38,177 nt of DNA from Thermoplasmata archaeon (GTDB taxonomy: Archaea; Thermoplasmatota; Thermoplasmata; Lutacidiplasmatales; UBA184), in NCBI GenBank assembly GCA_022750415.1, contig JAKIVT010000008.1:1-38177 (forward strand), read 5' to 3'. The notes beneath the pieces are model-generated. The model was not told the DNA's origin and ran no database searches. It saw nothing but the letters and a program-made list of their open reading frames with translations. The translations under genes were made by a program, and so were the position numbers. Positions 28,542 through 36,991 of this stretch are shown piece after piece (positions within the stretch are counted from its first letter, which is position 1; the number at the start of each line of letters is the position of its first letter).

Positions 28542-30023
28542 CTACAACATCCCAAGCGATCGGGCTTCGGCGCGGATCGGACCGACGTCGACCCCTGCGC
28601 CTTCAAGATCCGGAATGTTGATCGCGACGTTGGCGAGGGCCCCGATCCGCCCCGCCTCGAGCAGCGCGATCGCGGTCGTGAGGTCGCTCGCAATCGATGC
28701 GCGAACCTTCGGACGGAGCGCCGCGAGGCGCTCGGAAGATCCGTGGGAGAGGCGAGCGGTCGCAAGAGGGACTTCGGTCGCCCGTCGGACTGCGTCTCGG
28801 TGGGCGTTGAGAGCGGAGGGCTCCGAGGGAGCGACCTTGAGGGCTTTCCGAGCAGACCGAAGAGCCTCGAACGCCTCGGTGTCTTCGTCGACCCCCGCCA
28901 GCAGGCGGTCGCGGGCGGTGGCCATCTCCGCGATGGCAGCATCGAGGATTGGGTCATTCGCGTCCTTCGGCTGGGAGAAGCGAAGGACCATTTCCCCGAG
29001 GGCGACGCCCATCGCCGCCGCGGCCGCCGATGCGCTCCCCCCGCCGGGGGTCGGTGTCCGCTCCGACAGTCGACGGGCGAACTCGGTGAGCGTTGCGGAC
29101 GCGAGCGATCGACCGGGCGCCTCCGGAGCGTCCGCGAAGCGCCGCTCGAGGATCTGGCGGCGGTCAAAGTGCGTGAGCTGGAGGTACGACTCCGCGGCGT
29201 CGAGGAGCGCATCGTCCGGAACGAGGCCGACGATCTCGGATTCGACGGTGCGAATCCCGGCCTTCGCGGCCTCGGCCCGGACCGCTTCGACGACGCGGGG
29301 GATCGGGGTCGTGTGGAAGTCGGTGAGGTTCATCGACACCTGGGCTTGGTTGCGCTCCTTGATCTCGAACCCAAGCGCCTTGACCTCGGGGAGGCCGCCG
29401 TCTCGGGCCCGAACGGCCTTCGCGATCCGCTTCGCAATCGCCACGTCGGGGGTCGCGAGGTAGATGTTGTAGGCGATGAGGACCGGGCGGGCCCCGATCG
29501 CGACCACCCCAGCGCTCGGGTGGACCTGCGGCGCGCCGAAGTCCGGCCTCTTGGCCGGGTCGGTGCCGATCGTGTCGCGGATCCCCTCGAATTGTCCGCG
29601 TCGGACGACGGCGAGGTCCGCGCGTTCCGGGACGCGAGCGCTCTGGGCGTACAGATAGACCGGGACGTGGAGTTCGCGGGCCACGCGTTCTCCGAGCTGT
29701 TCGGAGAGCCGGATCGCACCTTCGATCGTAGCGTCCCCGATCGGGATGAACGGGACGACATCGACCGCGCCCATTCGCGGGTGCTCCCCCACGTGGGTCC
29801 GCAGGTCGATCGAAGTCACGGCGACCCGCATCATCCGGAAGAGCGCTTCGAGGAGGGGCTCCCCTTCCCCGACGAGCGAGATCACCGACCGGTTGTGATC
29901 CGCGTTGCTCTCGACGTCCAGGACCCGCACTCCCGGGACCGTCCGAGCGGCGTCGGCGATCGCCGCGACCTTCGTTGCGTCCCGGCCCTCGGAAAAGTTC
30001 GGGACCGACTCGTACTGCGTCAC
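28542..30023 (-). CDS. ftcd: Bifunctional glutamate formimidoyltransferase / formimidoyl-tetrahydrofolate cyclodeaminase
   Basis: 493 residues. Residues 1-295 are the formiminotransferase: VPNFSEGRDATKVAAIADA, DHNRSVISLVGEG, HPRMGAVDVVPFIPI and MNLTDFHTTPIPRV. Residues about 315-493 are the cyclodeaminase, with LSERTPTPGGGSASAAAAAM and an all-helical remainder. The pair transfers the formimino group from formiminoglutamate to a folate and releases ammonia, the last steps of histidine breakdown; it is also a source of one-carbon units. No hut genes are in the window. The start is GTG 30023, overlapping the FEN1 stop as GTGA. Fused forms are known from animals and some prokaryotes. Confidence 0.94.
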   Translation of the reverse strand: MTQYESVPNFSEGRDATKVAAIADAARTVPGVRVLDVESNADHNRSVISLVGEGEPLLEALFRMMRVAVTSIDLRTHVGEHPRMGAVDVVPFIPIGDATIEGAIRLSEQLGERVARELHVPVYLYAQSARVPERADLAVVRRGQFEGIRDTIGTDPAKRPDFGAPQVHPSAGVVAIGARPVLIAYNIYLATPDVAIAKRIAKAVRARDGGLPEVKALGFEIKERNQAQVSMNLTDFHTTPIPRVVEAVRAEAAKAGIRTVESEIVGLVPDDALLDAAESYLQLTHFDRRQILERRFADAPEAPGRSLASATLTEFARRLSERTPTPGGGSASAAAAAMGVALGEMVLRFSQPKDANDPILDAAIAEMATARDRLLAGVDEDTEAFEALRSARKALKVAPSEPSALNAHRDAVRRATEVPLATARLSHGSSERLAALRPKVRASIASDLTTAIALLEAGRIGALANVAINIPDLEGAGVDVGPIRAEARSLGML

Positions 30024-31054
30024 GACCCTTCCCCCCCGAACGCATCGAGCATCGTCTGCCGACCGTGGTCCAGGACCGTGGGCGCGAGTGGGGAGCCGTG
30101 CCGTTTCGCCCTCTGCAACGCTCCGTCCACGCGGTCCGCGGAGAAACCGTGCCGGTCCACCAGGATCCGGTGCACCGCGTCGCGGTCCAGCGGGCGGAGC
30201 ACCACCGGCTCGACCTCGATGGTCTGCGGATTCCGGAACAGCTCGGCCACCGGTTCCGCCTCGGCGGGGTCGAGACCGGCCTTCCGGAGCGTCCCTTCCC
30301 AGCCCAGGTGTTCGCGCGCGAGCTTCAACGCCTTTTTCGGCCCGTACCCCCGAACGCCGTCCGAGAAGTCGGTCCCGACGAGCAGCCCGATGAGGAGGAG
30401 TTCCTCGTCCGAGATGCCGAGCTGTTCGAGCAATTTCTCCCGGTCGATGATCTGGGCGGCGGGCGCTTTCCCCTGCCGGAGCCGCGCCGCCAGGCCCCGG
30501 ACCAGACGCGGCGCGTGGAAGAGGAGGCTATCGTAGTCTTCGGAAGCGGCGGCCCAGACCGTCCCGCGTTGCGCCATCGCGGCGGCCTGCGCCTCCCCCT
30601 CGGACGGAGCTTGGATGGCCGGAACGCCGAGCGCGCGGAGGAGCTCCATGGTCTCTTCGGCCATCGAGCGCGAGAACCGGCTCGTTTGCGCGGCCTTTTT
30701 CCGGGCGGTCTCGAGGTCGCCGGCCTCGAGCGCCTCCTTCCACGCGGTCTCGGCCCGCTCCTTCGCGACGAACCGTTCGCGGAGGGTCCCGGCCTTCAGG
30801 TCCGGTGGCTTTCCATCGAACACCCAGGCGGGGGTGACGCCCTGTCCCAGGAGGGAGGTCGTCCGGTAGAGAACCCCGATCAGGTGGCTGGTGATGCGAC
30901 CCTCCGGGTCGCTGAACGGCTGACCGTCCCGCTGGCGGATCGTCGCGAGGAATTGGTAGACGGCGTTGTAGGCGTCGACGGCGACGGACCGGCCCGCGAG
31001 AGCCTCCCAGGGAAGCTCCTCCGGGCTCACCAAGTCGCGGAACGGAAGCCCCAC
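30020..31054 (-). CDS. fen: Flap endonuclease 1
   Basis: Structure-specific 5' nuclease that removes flaps during Okazaki fragment processing, 344 residues. The N-region has SVAVDAYNAVYQFLATIRQR with D27 and AWVFDGKPPDLK with D80, and the I-region has APSEGEAQAAAMAQRG, ASEDYDSLLF and GTDFSDGVRGYGPKKAL (helix-hairpin-helix). The C-terminal QTMLDAFG is a PCNA-interacting motif ending in FG rather than the common FF or WF. The start is GTG 31054 because FEN1 proteins start Met-Gly at exactly this point; nothing upstream is family-like. The stop overlaps FTCD. A weak TATA-like AAGTACTC lies about 20-30 nt upstream. Confidence 0.96.
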   Translation of the reverse strand: MGLPFRDLVSPEELPWEALAGRSVAVDAYNAVYQFLATIRQRDGQPFSDPEGRITSHLIGVLYRTTSLLGQGVTPAWVFDGKPPDLKAGTLRERFVAKERAETAWKEALEAGDLETARKKAAQTSRFSRSMAEETMELLRALGVPAIQAPSEGEAQAAAMAQRGTVWAAASEDYDSLLFHAPRLVRGLAARLRQGKAPAAQIIDREKLLEQLGISDEELLLIGLLVGTDFSDGVRGYGPKKALKLAREHLGWEGTLRKAGLDPAEAEPVAELFRNPQTIEVEPVVLRPLDRDAVHRILVDRHGFSADRVDGALQRAKRHGSPLAPTVLDHGRQTMLDAFGGEGS

Positions 31055-31154
31055 GTACCTCGTCGAGCGGCGCGGAGTACTTGTCCCTTGGGGACGGAAT
31101 TCCGGGTGGACGAATCTACATGTACAGCAGGGTGGTGCCAGCGGCCGAGACCCC

Positions 31155-31946
31155 ATGTCGCTCGAATGGCGGGATACCGCCTCCACCGCTTCTCCTCTGG
31201 CGCCCGGAGGGATCGTACTTTCGAGCTTTCCGTCCGCCGGGCTCGCCGCGACCGTTGCCGGTCATTACATCGTCAAATCTCTCAAGCTGCCCCGGATCGG
31301 CGTCTTCGACGGCTCCGACTCGCAACCCATCGCGGTGGTCCAGGACGGCCAGGTCCACCCCCCCATCCGGGTCTACGGCCGATCCGACCTCGCTGTCGTA
31401 CTCTCGGAGCTTCCCGTCCCGCCCGACCTCGCCTTCGTTGCGGCGCAGGCGATCCTCCGCGGCGCGGAGCAGCGGAAGGCGCGCTGGGTGATCGGTCTGG
31501 AAGGCGTCATGCCCCACCCGGTCGAGGCGGAGTCGTCGACGCCGGGGGCCACCCCAGCGGCCGACGAGACCGTCTGGGTCGCCACGTCCCAAGAGAACGC
31601 GTCGTTCGCTGCCGAACTGAAGAAGGCGAACGCGCGGCGCCTTGAGGATGGGGTCATCGGCGGACTCTCCGGAGCGCTGCTGATCGAGGGGATCGCGCGT
31701 GCGACGCCCGTCGCGGTTCTCCTGGTCAGCGCCGTGACGGCTGCCGAGGGGTTCCCGGACCACCGGGCTGGCGCGGCGCTGATCGAGACCCTCGACCGCC
31801 TCCTTCCGGAACTCAAGATCGACACAGGGCCGCTTCGCACCCAGGCCGAGTCGATCGAGAAGGCGCTGCGCGCAGCGATGCGGGCCCGAAAGCACGCGGT
31901 CCCCGAGCTTTCGACGGAGCCCGCGCAGCCGACGATCTACGGATAG
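31155..31946 (+). CDS. PAC2 family proteasome assembly chaperone (PbaB-like)
   Basis: 263 residues of the PAC2 fold. Core features are SSFPSAGLAATVAGHYIVKS near the N-terminus, VVLSELPVPPD, WVIGLEGVMPHP and the central GGLSGALLIEGIARATPVAV with a following LLVSAVTAAEGFPDHRAGAA. The protein ends PTIYG, a hydrophobic-Tyr-X (HbYX) motif, which in PbaB and proteasome activators docks into the alpha-ring pockets. It may therefore bind the 20S proteasome, as chaperone or as regulator. It stands alone, divergent from FEN1; no proteasome subunit gene is in the window. Confidence 0.9.
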   Translation: MSLEWRDTASTASPLAPGGIVLSSFPSAGLAATVAGHYIVKSLKLPRIGVFDGSDSQPIAVVQDGQVHPPIRVYGRSDLAVVLSELPVPPDLAFVAAQAILRGAEQRKARWVIGLEGVMPHPVEAESSTPGATPAADETVWVATSQENASFAAELKKANARRLEDGVIGGLSGALLIEGIARATPVAVLLVSAVTAAEGFPDHRAGAALIETLDRLLPELKIDTGPLRTQAESIEKALRAAMRARKHAVPELSTEPAQPTIYG

Positions 31947-32830: not shown

Positions 32831-33754
32831 TCAGAGCGCCTCGGGGCCCCGCGGGCCCGAGGCGATGACCTCGAAGGTGAGCTCGACGTCGGGGGAGGCC
32901 GTCGGGCCGCCCGGCGACATCTGGGGGTACATCGGGGGAAACTCTTGGGGGGGCTCGGGCCCGATCGAGCTGGGGATCGTCGGTGGGATCCTCGGGAAGC
33001 TCTCCTCGACGGCCAGTTGGGAGATCCTCTGGGAGTCGAGGAGGGCCTCGACCGGGGTCAACATCGATTCCTCGATGTGGCCGGCGATGCGGTCCGCCCA
33101 GACGACGGGGACCTGACGGAGCGGCATCCGCCGGTTGCGGCGGAGCAGCTCGTCGTTGTCGAGGACCATGAGGGTGGCTTGGCGGCGCTGGCGCTTCTCG
33201 ACGAAGGCGTCGAGGAAGTGGAGTCCCGCGATCGCCCGCTCGGCGACCGCGCGACGCTCCGCTTCGACGGCGAACGGCTTGACGACGAAGACGCTGAGCA
33301 CCTCGGCGGACCGGCTGGCGGCCTCGAGGACGACCGGCAGGATGCCGGTCCCGCTCGCGCCTCCCAGGGACGCGACGACCGTGACGAACGTGGCCCCGTC
33401 GAAGACCCGCTCCAAGGCGGGTTCCGCGGCCCGGGCGAGTTGCCCGGCGGCCCCGGCACTGACAGGAACACCTAGCGAAGAGCCGTTGTCGGCCCCGAGG
33501 CAGATCCGGCGGTCGAAGTCCTCGGCATCGGCGACCCGAGGGTCGCAATTGATGGCGACGGTCTCGACGAAGCGGAGGTGGCGGCGCGCGATTTCGCGAC
33601 CGACCCGGATCCCTCCGCCGCCGACGGCGACTAGGAGGAAGCGGACGTCATGTCCCAGTCGAACGGAGGGCTCCCAGAGCCCCGCGTCGACCTCATCCGT
33701 CCGCAGGTTCGTTCCGTCTCGGTCGTTCTCTCTTCTTCCGTTGGCCTCGCGCAT
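32831..33754 (-). CDS. Divergent FtsZ-like GTPase lacking the T7 loop
   Basis: 307 residues with the GTP-binding half of an FtsZ/tubulin fold. T1 is LLVAVGGGGIRVGREIARRH (about 41-59), strand 2 is VAINCDPRVADAEDF, and the tubulin/FtsZ signature T4 is SLGGASGTGILPVV (G131-G137, with Ala-Ser where FtsZ has Gly-Gly-Thr). VFVVKPFAVEAERRAVAERA and VLDNDELLRRNRRMPL match the FtsZ segments VTKPF and NDrLL. After the helix VVWADRIAGHIEESML the expected T7 motif NxDFxD and the C-terminal domain are missing; a Pro-rich tail follows. The GTPase-activating residues needed in polymer contacts are thus absent. ATG 33754 lies 41 nt after the ribbon-helix-helix gene, so the two form an operon. It is not a canonical FtsZ1/FtsZ2. 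Confidence 0.85.
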   Translation of the reverse strand: MREANGRRENDRDGTNLRTDEVDAGLWEPSVRLGHDVRFLLVAVGGGGIRVGREIARRHLRFVETVAINCDPRVADAEDFDRRICLGADNGSSLGVPVSAGAAGQLARAAEPALERVFDGATFVTVVASLGGASGTGILPVVLEAASRSAEVLSVFVVKPFAVEAERRAVAERAIAGLHFLDAFVEKRQRRQATLMVLDNDELLRRNRRMPLRQVPVVWADRIAGHIEESMLTPVEALLDSQRISQLAVEESFPRIPPTIPSSIGPEPPQEFPPMYPQMSPGGPTASPDVELTFEVIASGPRGPEAL

Positions 33755-33795
33755 CGCCACCACCCCCGCCGTGAATCGTCCGAATCCCCCCTGGG

Positions 33796-34299
33796 CTACC
33801 GGCCCAGGACCCCCTTGCGTTCGAGCTCTTGCGACGAATCGCTCAGCTCGCGCAGCCGCTCCCGGTTGGCGCTCGCGCTGCGGACGGCCGACCGGGACCG
33901 ATCGACGAGCTCGGCGACCTTCGCCTCGAGCTCGCCGCGTCGGACCAGCTCGGCGAGGACGTCCGCGAGGTCGCGGCCGTTCCCGTTCAGCTCTCCGTAG
34001 GCGCGCAGCGTCTCCACTTCGTCCGACCGAAGCCGGACCGGCACCTCGACCAGGCCCCGGACCGAACGGGTGGCGACGCTCTCGACGGCCGTGAGGGCCC
34101 GCGCCCGAAGGAAATCGCGCAGCGCCTCGCGCATCAGTTCCGACCGGCTGCGGAACTCCCCACTGGCGACGAACGAGTCGACCAGTTGGAGCTCTCGCCG
34201 GTGGCACCGGAGCGCGATTCGCTCGTCCTCGGGACCGATCCGCGAGTCGTTCGGAGCCGAAAGCTCCTCGGATTCGCGGCGCGGGGGTTTGTCGAACAC
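33796..34299 (-). CDS. Long ribbon-helix-helix (CdrS-like) regulator with coiled coil
   Basis: 167 residues. Residues 27-66 (ERIALRCHRRELQLVDSFVA, EFRSRSELMREALRDFLRA) are a ribbon-helix-helix DNA-binding domain like that of archaeal CdrS. Residues 84-122 (VEVPVRLRSDEVETLRAYGE, then a helix LADVLAELVRRG) have the same strand-helix-helix order and may be a second, degenerate copy. Residues 123-162 form a charged coiled coil. In haloarchaea a short CdrS is cotranscribed with ftsZ2 and controls division genes; here the partner downstream is an FtsZ-like gene. The start is GTG 34299 with a TATA box 29-36 nt upstream. Its operator may be the inverted repeats at 34360-34396 and 34442-34461. Confidence 0.82.
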   Translation of the reverse strand: MFDKPPRRESEELSAPNDSRIGPEDERIALRCHRRELQLVDSFVASGEFRSRSELMREALRDFLRARALTAVESVATRSVRGLVEVPVRLRSDEVETLRAYGELNGNGRDLADVLAELVRRGELEAKVAELVDRSRSAVRSASANRERLRELSDSSQELERKGVLGR

Positions 34300-34327: not shown

Positions 34328-34335
34328 TACTTAAA
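34328..34335 (-). promoter_or_regulatory. TATA box of the RHH/FtsZ-like operon
   Basis: Minus-strand TTTAAGTA, 29-36 nt before GTG 34299, in an AT-rich pocket. One of the clearest TATA boxes of the window. Confidence 0.65.
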
Positions 34336-34359: not shown

Positions 34360-34396
34360 AACGTCGGTAGGGGTCCGGTCCGGCCCGGCCGACGTT
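34360..34396. repeat. Perfect 8-bp inverted repeat upstream of the RHH/FtsZ-like operon
   Basis: AACGTCGG (34360-34367) and CCGACGTT (34389-34396) are perfect inverted copies with a 21-nt spacer that contains tandem GGTCC units. Arms are about two helical turns apart (29 bp start to start). The repeat lies just upstream of the TATA box at 34328-34335 and is a candidate operator. Confidence 0.45.
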
Positions 34397-34441
34397 GTCG
34401 AACAAATCCGGAGCCGCGAAATTGCGGGGCGCCGCGGAAAT

Positions 34442-34744: not shown

Positions 34745-36991
34745 GTGACCGCAATTGTTTCGCGTGGCCGCCGCTTCCGAACGTCCAGTTGGCGCCGGGC
34801 CTCGGCGCGACGCAACCACCGGGGAGTCAGCGATGTCGTCGCGACGATCCTGCTCCTGGCCCTGACGGTGACCCTCTTCGCCTCGGTCTTCTTCTTCATC
34901 AACACGTTTCCCCGCCCCCCACCGCAACCGGCGAATCAGTTCTCGGCGACGCTCACCTACGGGAAGGCCGTGGCGGGAGTCGTCCCGATCCTCTACGTGA
35001 ACGTCCAACACCTGGCCGGCCCGACGGTGGCCGGCGTTTCCACCCAGCAGGTCGCGGTCTACCTCCAGTCCCAGGCGCATCCGGCCGCGTTCGCCGCTCC
35101 GTTCACGCTCGCGTCGGGTCTGAATGGTTCGACGACGTGGGCGCTGGGCCAGACCTGGCGCGAAAACATCACGAGCTACGGGTTGACGGCGGCCCCGTCC
35201 CCGGACAACATCACGATCTCGATCATCGCTCAGTCCCAGCTCTTGTTCCGCATCACGCTCCCGGGCTCGAGCCCCTTCCTGCCGCCGATCTTCACCCAGG
35301 CGGGCACGAACCCGGCTTCTCCCAACGTCAACTCGCCGTTCACGGTCTACGTCGGGATTAGCGACTCCAACCTGCGCCCGGGCTCGGTCTTCGTGAACGA
35401 CTCGGAGATCCCGGGCGTGGCCGGAAGTGGCCTCAACGCGATGTCGTTCCTCTCCACGTCGGGTCTGTGGGTCTTCACCGTCGCCGGAGGGTCGTCGTCG
35501 TCCGGAACGTTCTACGTCTTCGTGAACGCCACCGACGGTTCCGGGTTGCAGAATTCGATCGCCATCCCCGTCACGATCACCAATACCGGCGGGAGCGCGA
35601 CCGTCCTGCAGATCCAGGTGACGGCGGACAACACGGCCCCGGTCCTCGGAGTGCCCATCCAGTTGGAGGCCAGCGTCACGAACAACGGTGGGTCCCCCGG
35701 AACGGTCCTTGTCCAGTTCTACGTCGGTGGGAACACGGTCGGCGGCACGACCTCCCAAGGGATCAACGCGGGCGGTACCGCCGTCTACACGCAGTCTTGG
35801 ACCCCGGCGTCCCTCGGCGCAACCCCCGTGCAGGCGCTCGCCACCATGACCGGCGCTTCGGCGGAGGGAGGGTTCTCGATCACCGTCTTCCCGAAGATCC
35901 TGTTCATCGCCCACGCGTACCCGGCCGGCTCCTTCCCCGTCTCCAACACCTCGGCGGACCTCGCCCAGAAGCTGACCGCCGACGGATTCCCCTTCACGTC
36001 GATGTCGGTCGCCTGCGGGGTCGCGCTGCCGGCAACGGCGACGTTGAAGCTCTACGGGGTCGTCATCATCGATTTCGGGAGCGCCACGGGGCTCGTGTGC
36101 GCCCAGCTCCCGCCCGGGGCGAGCGAGCAGACGAAGATCACGGGAGCCGCGACCACGACGAACTTCTGGCTCGTCGGGTCGAACGGCTTCACCGCAACGA
36201 CCTGCGCCAGCTACTCCGCCGCCTTCCAGACCCAGTTCGGCCTGGGGACGAGCGGCACCTGCACCGCCTCCCATGCCGCGGCCTCGGCGGTCACCTACAC
36301 GTCGTCGGCCACGGCCCCAGCGCTCCGGGCGGACGGTCTCGGCGGGCTCACCCTCTCCATCAACAAGACGTTCGCGGCCTCGAACGCGTTCCAGCCGTAC
36401 TACTCGTTCACGACCCAGGGCATCGGCAAGACCTGGCTCGCGGACTCCGGCGCCCTTGTCGTCGGCGCGTACACGAACACGACGACGAACCACCAGCAAC
36501 TGATCCTCGGTACGGACCCCGCCCTGATCACCTCGCTCATCCCCGGCGGAAACGCATGGGGGACGGCGTCGGGTGCCTCGTCCGCCGTCGTGTACAACGC
36601 GGTGAACTTCCTCTGCGGATTCTCCACGACGACCAACCCCGGGCGGGGGCTGTCCGACTTCGGGATCGCCGGCAGCACCCAATACCCGCTCAAGCACGGC
36701 CTGCCGTCGGAGTTCTTCGTCGCGGTCCGGGCCAACGGCCCGGTCGGGGGCGCCGTCTTCGCTACGCTCTACATCGGAGGCAGCCCGGCGTACTTCGGCG
36801 GCTCGCTCGTGACGGGAGCGGTCACCCTCTCGGGGAACGGAGGCTGGTCGTGGATCGTCCTTAACTGGACCGCGCCGGCCGCCGGGAACTACGTGCTCAG
36901 CCTCGGTCTCACCAGCGAGAACACCGACATGTGGCTCACCAACAACTTGCTCCCGCTGTCGTACTACAACAGCGCGACCGTGTTCACGTGA
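34745..36991 (+). CDS. Large pilin-like surface protein with class III signal peptide
   Basis: 748 residues. The N-terminus has basic residues up to RRNHRGVSDVVATILLLALT, the archaeal type IV pilin/archaellin pattern: a prepilin-peptidase site before GVSDVV followed by a hydrophobic helix of about 20 residues. Pilins usually have 120-250 residues, so this is very long. Residues about 170-275 and 280-380 look like beta-sandwich domains, the second (LQIQVTADNTAPVLGVPIQL, then SVTNNGGSPGTVLVQFYVG) like CARDB. Residues about 380-620 begin ILFIAHAYPAGSFP with a VVIIDFGSATG strand, resembling a Rossmann-like glutamine amidotransferase fold of unknown activity. The C-terminal 100 residues are another beta domain (YVLSLGLTSENTDMWLTNN). 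Ser/Thr/Asn-rich, so probably glycosylated. GTG 34745 has GAGG upstream. Confidence 0.85.
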   Translation: MTAIVSRGRRFRTSSWRRASARRNHRGVSDVVATILLLALTVTLFASVFFFINTFPRPPPQPANQFSATLTYGKAVAGVVPILYVNVQHLAGPTVAGVSTQQVAVYLQSQAHPAAFAAPFTLASGLNGSTTWALGQTWRENITSYGLTAAPSPDNITISIIAQSQLLFRITLPGSSPFLPPIFTQAGTNPASPNVNSPFTVYVGISDSNLRPGSVFVNDSEIPGVAGSGLNAMSFLSTSGLWVFTVAGGSSSSGTFYVFVNATDGSGLQNSIAIPVTITNTGGSATVLQIQVTADNTAPVLGVPIQLEASVTNNGGSPGTVLVQFYVGGNTVGGTTSQGINAGGTAVYTQSWTPASLGATPVQALATMTGASAEGGFSITVFPKILFIAHAYPAGSFPVSNTSADLAQKLTADGFPFTSMSVACGVALPATATLKLYGVVIIDFGSATGLVCAQLPPGASEQTKITGAATTTNFWLVGSNGFTATTCASYSAAFQTQFGLGTSGTCTASHAAASAVTYTSSATAPALRADGLGGLTLSINKTFAASNAFQPYYSFTTQGIGKTWLADSGALVVGAYTNTTTNHQQLILGTDPALITSLIPGGNAWGTASGASSAVVYNAVNFLCGFSTTTNPGRGLSDFGIAGSTQYPLKHGLPSEFFVAVRANGPVGGAVFATLYIGGSPAYFGGSLVTGAVTLSGNGGWSWIVLNWTAPAAGNYVLSLGLTSENTDMWLTNNLLPLSYYNSATVFT

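Follow-up and report, generated by a model that had tools for sequence, protein, structure and literature searches.

A conserved operon of Thermoplasmata that joins a tandem ribbon-helix-helix protein to a half-FtsZ, with predicted operators at its own promoter

The window analysed here is a stretch of 38,177 nucleotides, contig C198 of a 2.0 Mb genome (90% complete) of a soil archaeon of the order Lutacidiplasmatales, class Thermoplasmata, whose closest named relative among the genomes compared is Candidatus Lutacidiplasma silvani (L076). It contains a gene for a ribbon-helix-helix (RHH) protein directly upstream of a gene for an FtsZ-like protein reduced to a GTPase domain and helix H7, which we call half-FtsZ. 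The genes and their surroundings are as follows.

33796 to 34299, minus strand: RHH gene, GTG start, 167 aa; canonical RHH unit, degenerate second unit and long helix
33760 to 33767, minus strand: Shine-Dalgarno-like GGGGGTGG ahead of the half-FtsZ start, read from the sequence
32831 to 33754, minus strand: half-FtsZ gene, ATG start, 307 aa; GTPase domain and H7 only
31155 to 31946 and 30020 to 31186: a gene of the PAC2 family and a gene for a FEN1-like nuclease, both conserved beside the pair

A gap of 41 nt separates the RHH stop codon from the half-FtsZ start, and this spacing, together with its conservation, leads us to infer that the two genes are probably cotranscribed. Both evolve under purifying selection, with dN/dS between close relatives of 0.13–0.30 for half-FtsZ and 0.26–0.27 for the RHH gene. 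These values, and the identical end point of half-FtsZ in dozens of genomes, exclude a pseudogene or a truncation introduced by metagenomic assembly. The neighbours of the pair are fixed in Lutacidiplasmatales (PAC2 in 30 loci, the FEN1-like gene in 26). Divergent from the RHH promoter lies a gene for a large secreted protein with an archaeal type IV pilin-like N-terminus (34745–36991 of the window); such a protein was found next to the pair in 20 loci.

The half-FtsZ protein matches a single Pfam family, Tubulin/FtsZ GTPase (PF00091), over residues 40–204 (E 1.6e-14). The same Pfam search gave no match to FtsZ_C (PF12327), which all three other FtsZs of the genome match, and the NCBIfam ftsZ model TIGR00065 scores 68 bits, under its cut-off of 295. 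Using a 34-row family alignment, AlphaFold2 predicts the GTPase fold at residues 33–210, for the most part at a pLDDT of about 95, and disorder beyond H7. A Foldseek search against the PDB aligned about 200 columns, and the best 50 matches listed were all FtsZ. Four elements of the protein are referred to below.

33602 to 33625, minus strand: T1 loop VGGGGIRV, residues 44–51, with Arg50 in place of the canonical Asn
33335 to 33367, minus strand: T4 loop LGGASGTGILP, residues 130–140, from the family alignment
32999 to 33121, minus strand: helix H7, residues 212–252, the last folded part in the AlphaFold2 model
32867 to 32887, minus strand: conserved C-terminal peptide VELTFEV, residues 290–296, behind a Pro-rich disordered linker

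The T7 loop (NxDxxD) and the C-terminal domain, reported as missing in a first-pass annotation made from the sequence, are absent from the predicted structure, tail included, and from every aligned member of the family. All members stop soon after H7 and continue through a Pro-rich linker to a peptide around VELTFEV, in which E295 is invariant and E291 is kept in at least 90% of the sequences. A complete FtsZ with a divergent tail is excluded by the alignment and the prediction taken together. With T7 and the activation domain lost, half-FtsZ is not expected to hydrolyse GTP by the FtsZ mechanism or to join a protofilament as a subunit. In the functional sense it lies outside FtsZ, and we file it with systems of the CdrS-FtsZ kind.

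The nucleotide pocket is retained in a modified form. The T1–T6 domain is present, as the PF00091 match and the FtsZ folds of the PDB indicate, which upholds the earlier proposal that the binding motifs T1 and T4 persist; the base contacts are altered. Residues G45, G46, N69, D71, G131, G132, G135, P160, F161, E164 and N200 are invariant in the window's family. The positions in contact with phosphate, Mg and ribose, as assigned from established FtsZ structures, are invariant in half-FtsZ. The T1 Asn position is Arg in 34/34 members of the window's family (Asn in 22/23 complete or RHH-linked long FtsZ), and the H7 Asp position is Ala or Gly in 33/34. These two replacements of base-contacting residues argue for a changed base recognition, so the ligand may not be GTP itself. 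Half-FtsZs elsewhere in the class mostly keep the T1 Asn and an Asn, Asp or Glu in H7. The altered T4 (GGASGTG) pointed out in the first-pass annotation is real but confined to close relatives: the third Gly position is G in 26 of the 34 family members, E in 5, A in 2 and S in 1.

FtsZl1 (Tubulin_2) belongs to the FtsZ superfamily, has no recognisable T7 or FtsZ C-terminal domain and coexists with canonical FtsZ; it also has no identifiable T6–H7, carries a C-terminal domain of its own and is encoded in operons with VWA, kinase and GTPase genes (PMC2875224). Half-FtsZ resembles it in lacking T7 and the FtsZ C-terminal domain and in standing beside canonical FtsZ in the window genome. Unlike FtsZl1, it has T6, H7 and an RHH partner. 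An assignment to Tubulin_2 was rejected, since PF13809 remained unmatched at E values up to 1.

The RHH protein appears to be a tandem, and three of its parts matter here.

34096 to 34230, minus strand: RHH unit 1, residues 24–68, a standard RHH
33925 to 34056, minus strand: degenerate RHH unit 2, residues 82–125, detected by hhalign
33799 to 33825, minus strand: conserved C-terminus LERKGVLGR, residues 159–167, family pattern LERKGVxGR

Unit 1 is ordinary (RHH_1 is matched by 29/34 family members). The second, degenerate unit suspected from the sequence gains support from class-wide profiles: the unit 2 of the window's family scores 19.6 in hhalign against the class-wide second units, better than any of 30 column shuffles (maximum 12.7), and the class-wide second unit is plainly an RHH in its own right (probability 97.6 against unit 1). 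The class-wide profiles were needed for this, as comparing the two units by hhalign inside the window's family alone gave nothing. A long helix is predicted at residues 111–161, and at the C-terminus G166 is invariant and R161 is kept in at least 90% of the sequences. The best Foldseek matches, all weak, are ParD-type RHH antitoxins. The haloarchaeal CdrS model NF058555 gives 27.3 bits (E 2.7e-6), under its cut-off of 100.

Of the 103 genomes searched of the window's GTDB-type family, roughly 70 contain strong members of the half-FtsZ family (E <1e-45), which are found in 34 of the 37 family genomes that are at least 90% complete. A profile search for FtsZ-like proteins in 390 genomes of the phylum revealed short ones in other families of Thermoplasmata as well. 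Conservation of the gene pair in relatives, on which the first-pass annotation had made its reading depend, was found in the window's family and across the class. The RHH gene lies directly upstream of half-FtsZ in 37/38 loci of the window's family, the exception (L041) being a contig end, and just upstream of the short T7-less FtsZ-like gene in 27/28 of the loci examined across the class. Complete FtsZs linked to RHH genes form a second set (L003, L187–L190, L204, L207 and L208). Matches in G002 and G003, considered as complete relatives of the family, proved to be ordinary canonical FtsZ.

In the tree of the GTPase domains, the window's family groups with the class-wide half-FtsZs, beside the complete FtsZs of other members of the phylum. 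The base of this group is weak (UFBoot 65) and L181 and L183 are placed elsewhere, which means that the truncation may have occurred more than once; a single origin common to all half-FtsZs is weakly supported. L181 and L183 (family f20) are RHH-linked and T7-less but stand apart from the main group of half-FtsZs, perhaps through an independent truncation.

Besides half-FtsZ, the window genome has three PF00091 proteins, each carrying FtsZ_C: the divergent complete L003 and two canonical FtsZs (L001 and L002), which answers the earlier question of whether a canonical ftsZ lies elsewhere in the genome. SepF is also present. The two canonical FtsZs and the complete RHH-linked one would provide targets for a modulator of filaments, in which the nucleotide face of half-FtsZ binds the T7 of a complete FtsZ (or makes some other contact) and caps or tunes the Z-ring while the RHH protein only sets the dose. 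Loss of T7 with retention of the nucleotide face is indeed what a one-sided cap is expected to look like, but in the window's family the T3 region of that face has diverged. Genomes of one methanogen family (MCR-alpha present), which we take to be probably Methanomethylophilaceae, are harder still to square with this idea. Six of its 18 genomes (G178, G208, G120, G288, G300 and G413; 94–99% complete) have a single PF00091 protein, of 240–278 aa, and most of the remaining ones have only a weak extra PF00091 match. In G178 and G208, both closed, and in G120 and G288, the sole PF00091 protein is T7-less and RHH-linked (L191, L175, L193 and L192, respectively), and SepF is missing from these same four, which are the ones of the six that were tested for it. 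Half-FtsZ is thus kept where no FtsZ ring can form, and we regard a role on filaments as rather unlikely. A search for ESCRT-III (PF03357) returned nothing over the cut-off, and the model likewise stayed below it in the Sulfolobus control, which makes the result uninformative. The anatomy of half-FtsZ and its persistence in genomes devoid of other FtsZ and of SepF give good support to the earlier suggestion that the protein does not form filaments.

The same genomes weigh against a type II toxin-antitoxin system, with the RHH protein as antitoxin and a half-FtsZ that poisons division. The small RHH gene placed first, a predicted palindromic autoregulatory operator (see below) and the weak structural likeness to ParD would fit such a system. 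Half-FtsZ nevertheless persists where no FtsZ target remains, and the near-universal presence of the pair in well-completed family genomes, its fixed neighbourhood, the purifying selection and the deep vertical conservation differ from the patchy, mobile distribution typical of these systems. We consider this the least probable of the explanations, and hardly credible.

The gene order itself is known from haloarchaea. In CdrS-FtsZ2 an RHH gene immediately precedes an FtsZ gene and shares its transcript, and CdrS is a transcription factor whose binding motif is symmetric and which has 18 sites, including ftsZ1 and dacZ (PMC7439475, PMC8406309). The locus was reported to be conserved across archaea (PMC7439475), and CdrS acts at ftsZ1 (PMC8406309). 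The window pair has the RHH gene in the same place, immediately ahead of a gene of the FtsZ family. It differs in its parts: CdrS is short and FtsZ2 has full GTPase and C-terminal domains, whereas here the RHH protein is a tandem and the FtsZ a half. The window genome contains another RHH-FtsZ operon (L003, contig C171). It also has a tandem RHH upstream of FtsZ, and its FtsZ is complete, with a T7 (NVDLAS) and FtsZ_C, where that of the window is a half. Both RHH proteins of the genome match the CdrS model weakly (27 bits, cut-off 100). Between the TATA-like element and the start, the L003 operon carries perfect TGTCNGACA dyads 22 bp apart, in place of the TGTTCGACA used in the window. The likeness to CdrS-FtsZ2 drawn in the first-pass annotation is therefore apt, given this second operon with a complete FtsZ, the weak matches to the CdrS model and the related operators. 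That CdrS-FtsZ2 exists and is widely conserved in archaea was known; half-FtsZ with an RHH protein is a variant that we did not find described. The open-access literature, covered in part, yielded no description of half-FtsZ, of its pairing with RHH or of a TGTCNGACA operator, at smc or elsewhere, and the paper describing the order Lutacidiplasmatales mentions neither FtsZ nor cell division.

The dyad TGTYNGACA is paired at the promoters of RHH-FtsZ operons far above chance. In the window we predict the following elements.

34396 to 34404, minus strand: operator copy 2, TGTTCGACA, 106 bp upstream of copy 1
34328 to 34335, minus strand: TATA-like element TTTAAGTA, between the operator copies
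34290 to 34298, minus strand: operator copy 1, TGTTCGACA, on the RHH start codon (GTG TTC GAC AAA = MFDK), conserved in the family

Counts were set against first-order Markov (dinucleotide) shuffles. The 38 loci of the window's family contain 73 sites with at most one mismatch (2.1 expected), and 38 loci of the class contain 12 perfect sites (0.10 expected). The two copies are 105 or 106 bp apart in 20 family loci, against at most one locus per spacing in the shuffles; a sub-clade of the family has them 24 bp apart, in the leader. Most loci of the family keep the TATA-like element, as TTTAAGTA, TTTATGTA or TATAAGTA. All 27 genes starting with MFD retain the operator 9-mer, and the copy on the start codon accounts for the conserved MFDK/N N-terminus. 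Part of this conservation is expected anyway from the preferred codons of these genes (TTC 412/438, GAC 486/599), and the second copy at a fixed spacing is stronger evidence for a putative operator than the one on the start codon. Other families have TGTCNGACA as the dyad, in many cases as a pair 22 bp apart. A scan of 25 genomes for such double sites led, at 0–1 mismatch, to RHH genes, FtsZ genes or both, namely the L003 operon and its counterparts in other genomes, one half-FtsZ operon (G232) and one RHH gene without FtsZ (G274). The latter (L274:1958–2377, on G274:C2) encodes a tandem RHH, carries a perfect double operator, has no adjoining ftsZ and lies near the gene of a TATA-binding protein.

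Autoregulation of the operon through these predicted operators is strongly indicated. Transcriptional control alone would explain both operators and pairing, and the RHH protein might then be a plain regulator of the operon, with half-FtsZ in a separate job (e.g., as a membrane, surface or metabolic GTP-binding protein) free of contact with, or feedback on, its neighbour. The Pro-rich linker and VELTFEV tail, which resemble a partner-binding tail such as those of FtsZ for SepF, would suit this view. The locus has nonetheless moved: it lies near leuS in several genomes of the class and near PAC2/FEN1 in the window's family. Pairing has outlived this relocation, suggesting that the products act together, and we find a separate job unlikely.

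Related sites occur upstream of the condensin gene smc. These regions (L280–L307, including that of the window genome, G000:C159) were reached via weaker double sites. In other families, 22 of them hold 11 perfect TGTCNGACA dyads (0.03 expected). In the window's family, all six smc genes tested have a dyad at most 65 nt from the start, perfect in five, and in the methanogen family four genomes tested had none. Set against CdrS, the predicted dyads lie at the window's own operon, and that of the sister operon at smc. This suggests a putative CdrS-like regulon uniting ftsZ and condensin. There is a hint that the tie to segregation belongs to the RHH protein of the complete-FtsZ operon more than to that of the window operon, whose variant is TGTTCGACA.

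The smc sites bring segregation modules to mind. In the plasmid partition system TubZRC and in SegAB, an NTPase works with a DNA-binding adaptor and repeated sites near their own promoter. The layout at the window is of this type, with an RHH protein that could be centromere-binding on repeated sites and an FtsZ-like protein as motor or switch. In contrast to these systems (SegAB is treated in PMC12284271), the locus has no filament-forming NTPase, as the loss of T7 leaves no motor filament, and the search of the window gave two predicted sites, both in the promoter region, and no iteron array. A module of this kind is very improbable.

From what was computed, i.e. the anatomy of half-FtsZ, its pairing, distribution and independence from canonical FtsZ, and the paired operators, we infer the remainder of a mechanism. 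The locus would be a two-gene switch that arose by duplication of a CdrS-FtsZ-type operon. Its tandem RHH protein would bind the two predicted dyads (TGTTCGACA at this locus, TGTCNGACA at the sister operon), which lie on both sides of the promoter and over the protein's own start codon, and would thereby limit transcription of both genes, repression being the presumed direction. Half-FtsZ would bind nucleotide and not assemble. Most likely monomeric and nucleotide-bound, it may modulate the RHH protein via its conserved tail, which is the weakest step; the direct partnership and its dependence on nucleotide are presumptive, and with them the nucleotide-responsive regulator proposed in the first-pass annotation. 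We give a probability of roughly 0.45 to the core of this reading, a vertically inherited, autoregulated, duplicated CdrS-FtsZ-type operon whose FtsZ is now a non-polymerising nucleotide-binding partner of the RHH regulator. More tentative, though possible, is that a tubulin-superfamily GTPase domain that no longer polymerises now serves an RHH transcription factor as nucleotide sensor or co-regulator, making it the signalling subunit of a cell-cycle gene circuit; its base specificity may even have changed in the window's family.

In a survey of the superfamily from 2010, every characterised FtsZ/tubulin protein was filament-forming (PMC2875224). If our reading is true, a conserved half-FtsZ that outlasts canonical FtsZ and SepF would mean that the fold can be retained for another job. 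The predicted operator, a dyad common to RHH-FtsZ operons and smc, would also offer a handle on the control of cell-cycle genes in a large archaeal class. A genome scan for lone TGTTCGACA sites was drowned by coding Leu/Val-Phe-Asp codons. In two genomes, a conserved intergenic lone TGTTCGACA accompanied by a TATA-like sequence lies upstream of a gene for a predicted secreted protein (L279:2389, i.e. G000:C143:30888, and G063:C24:4579).
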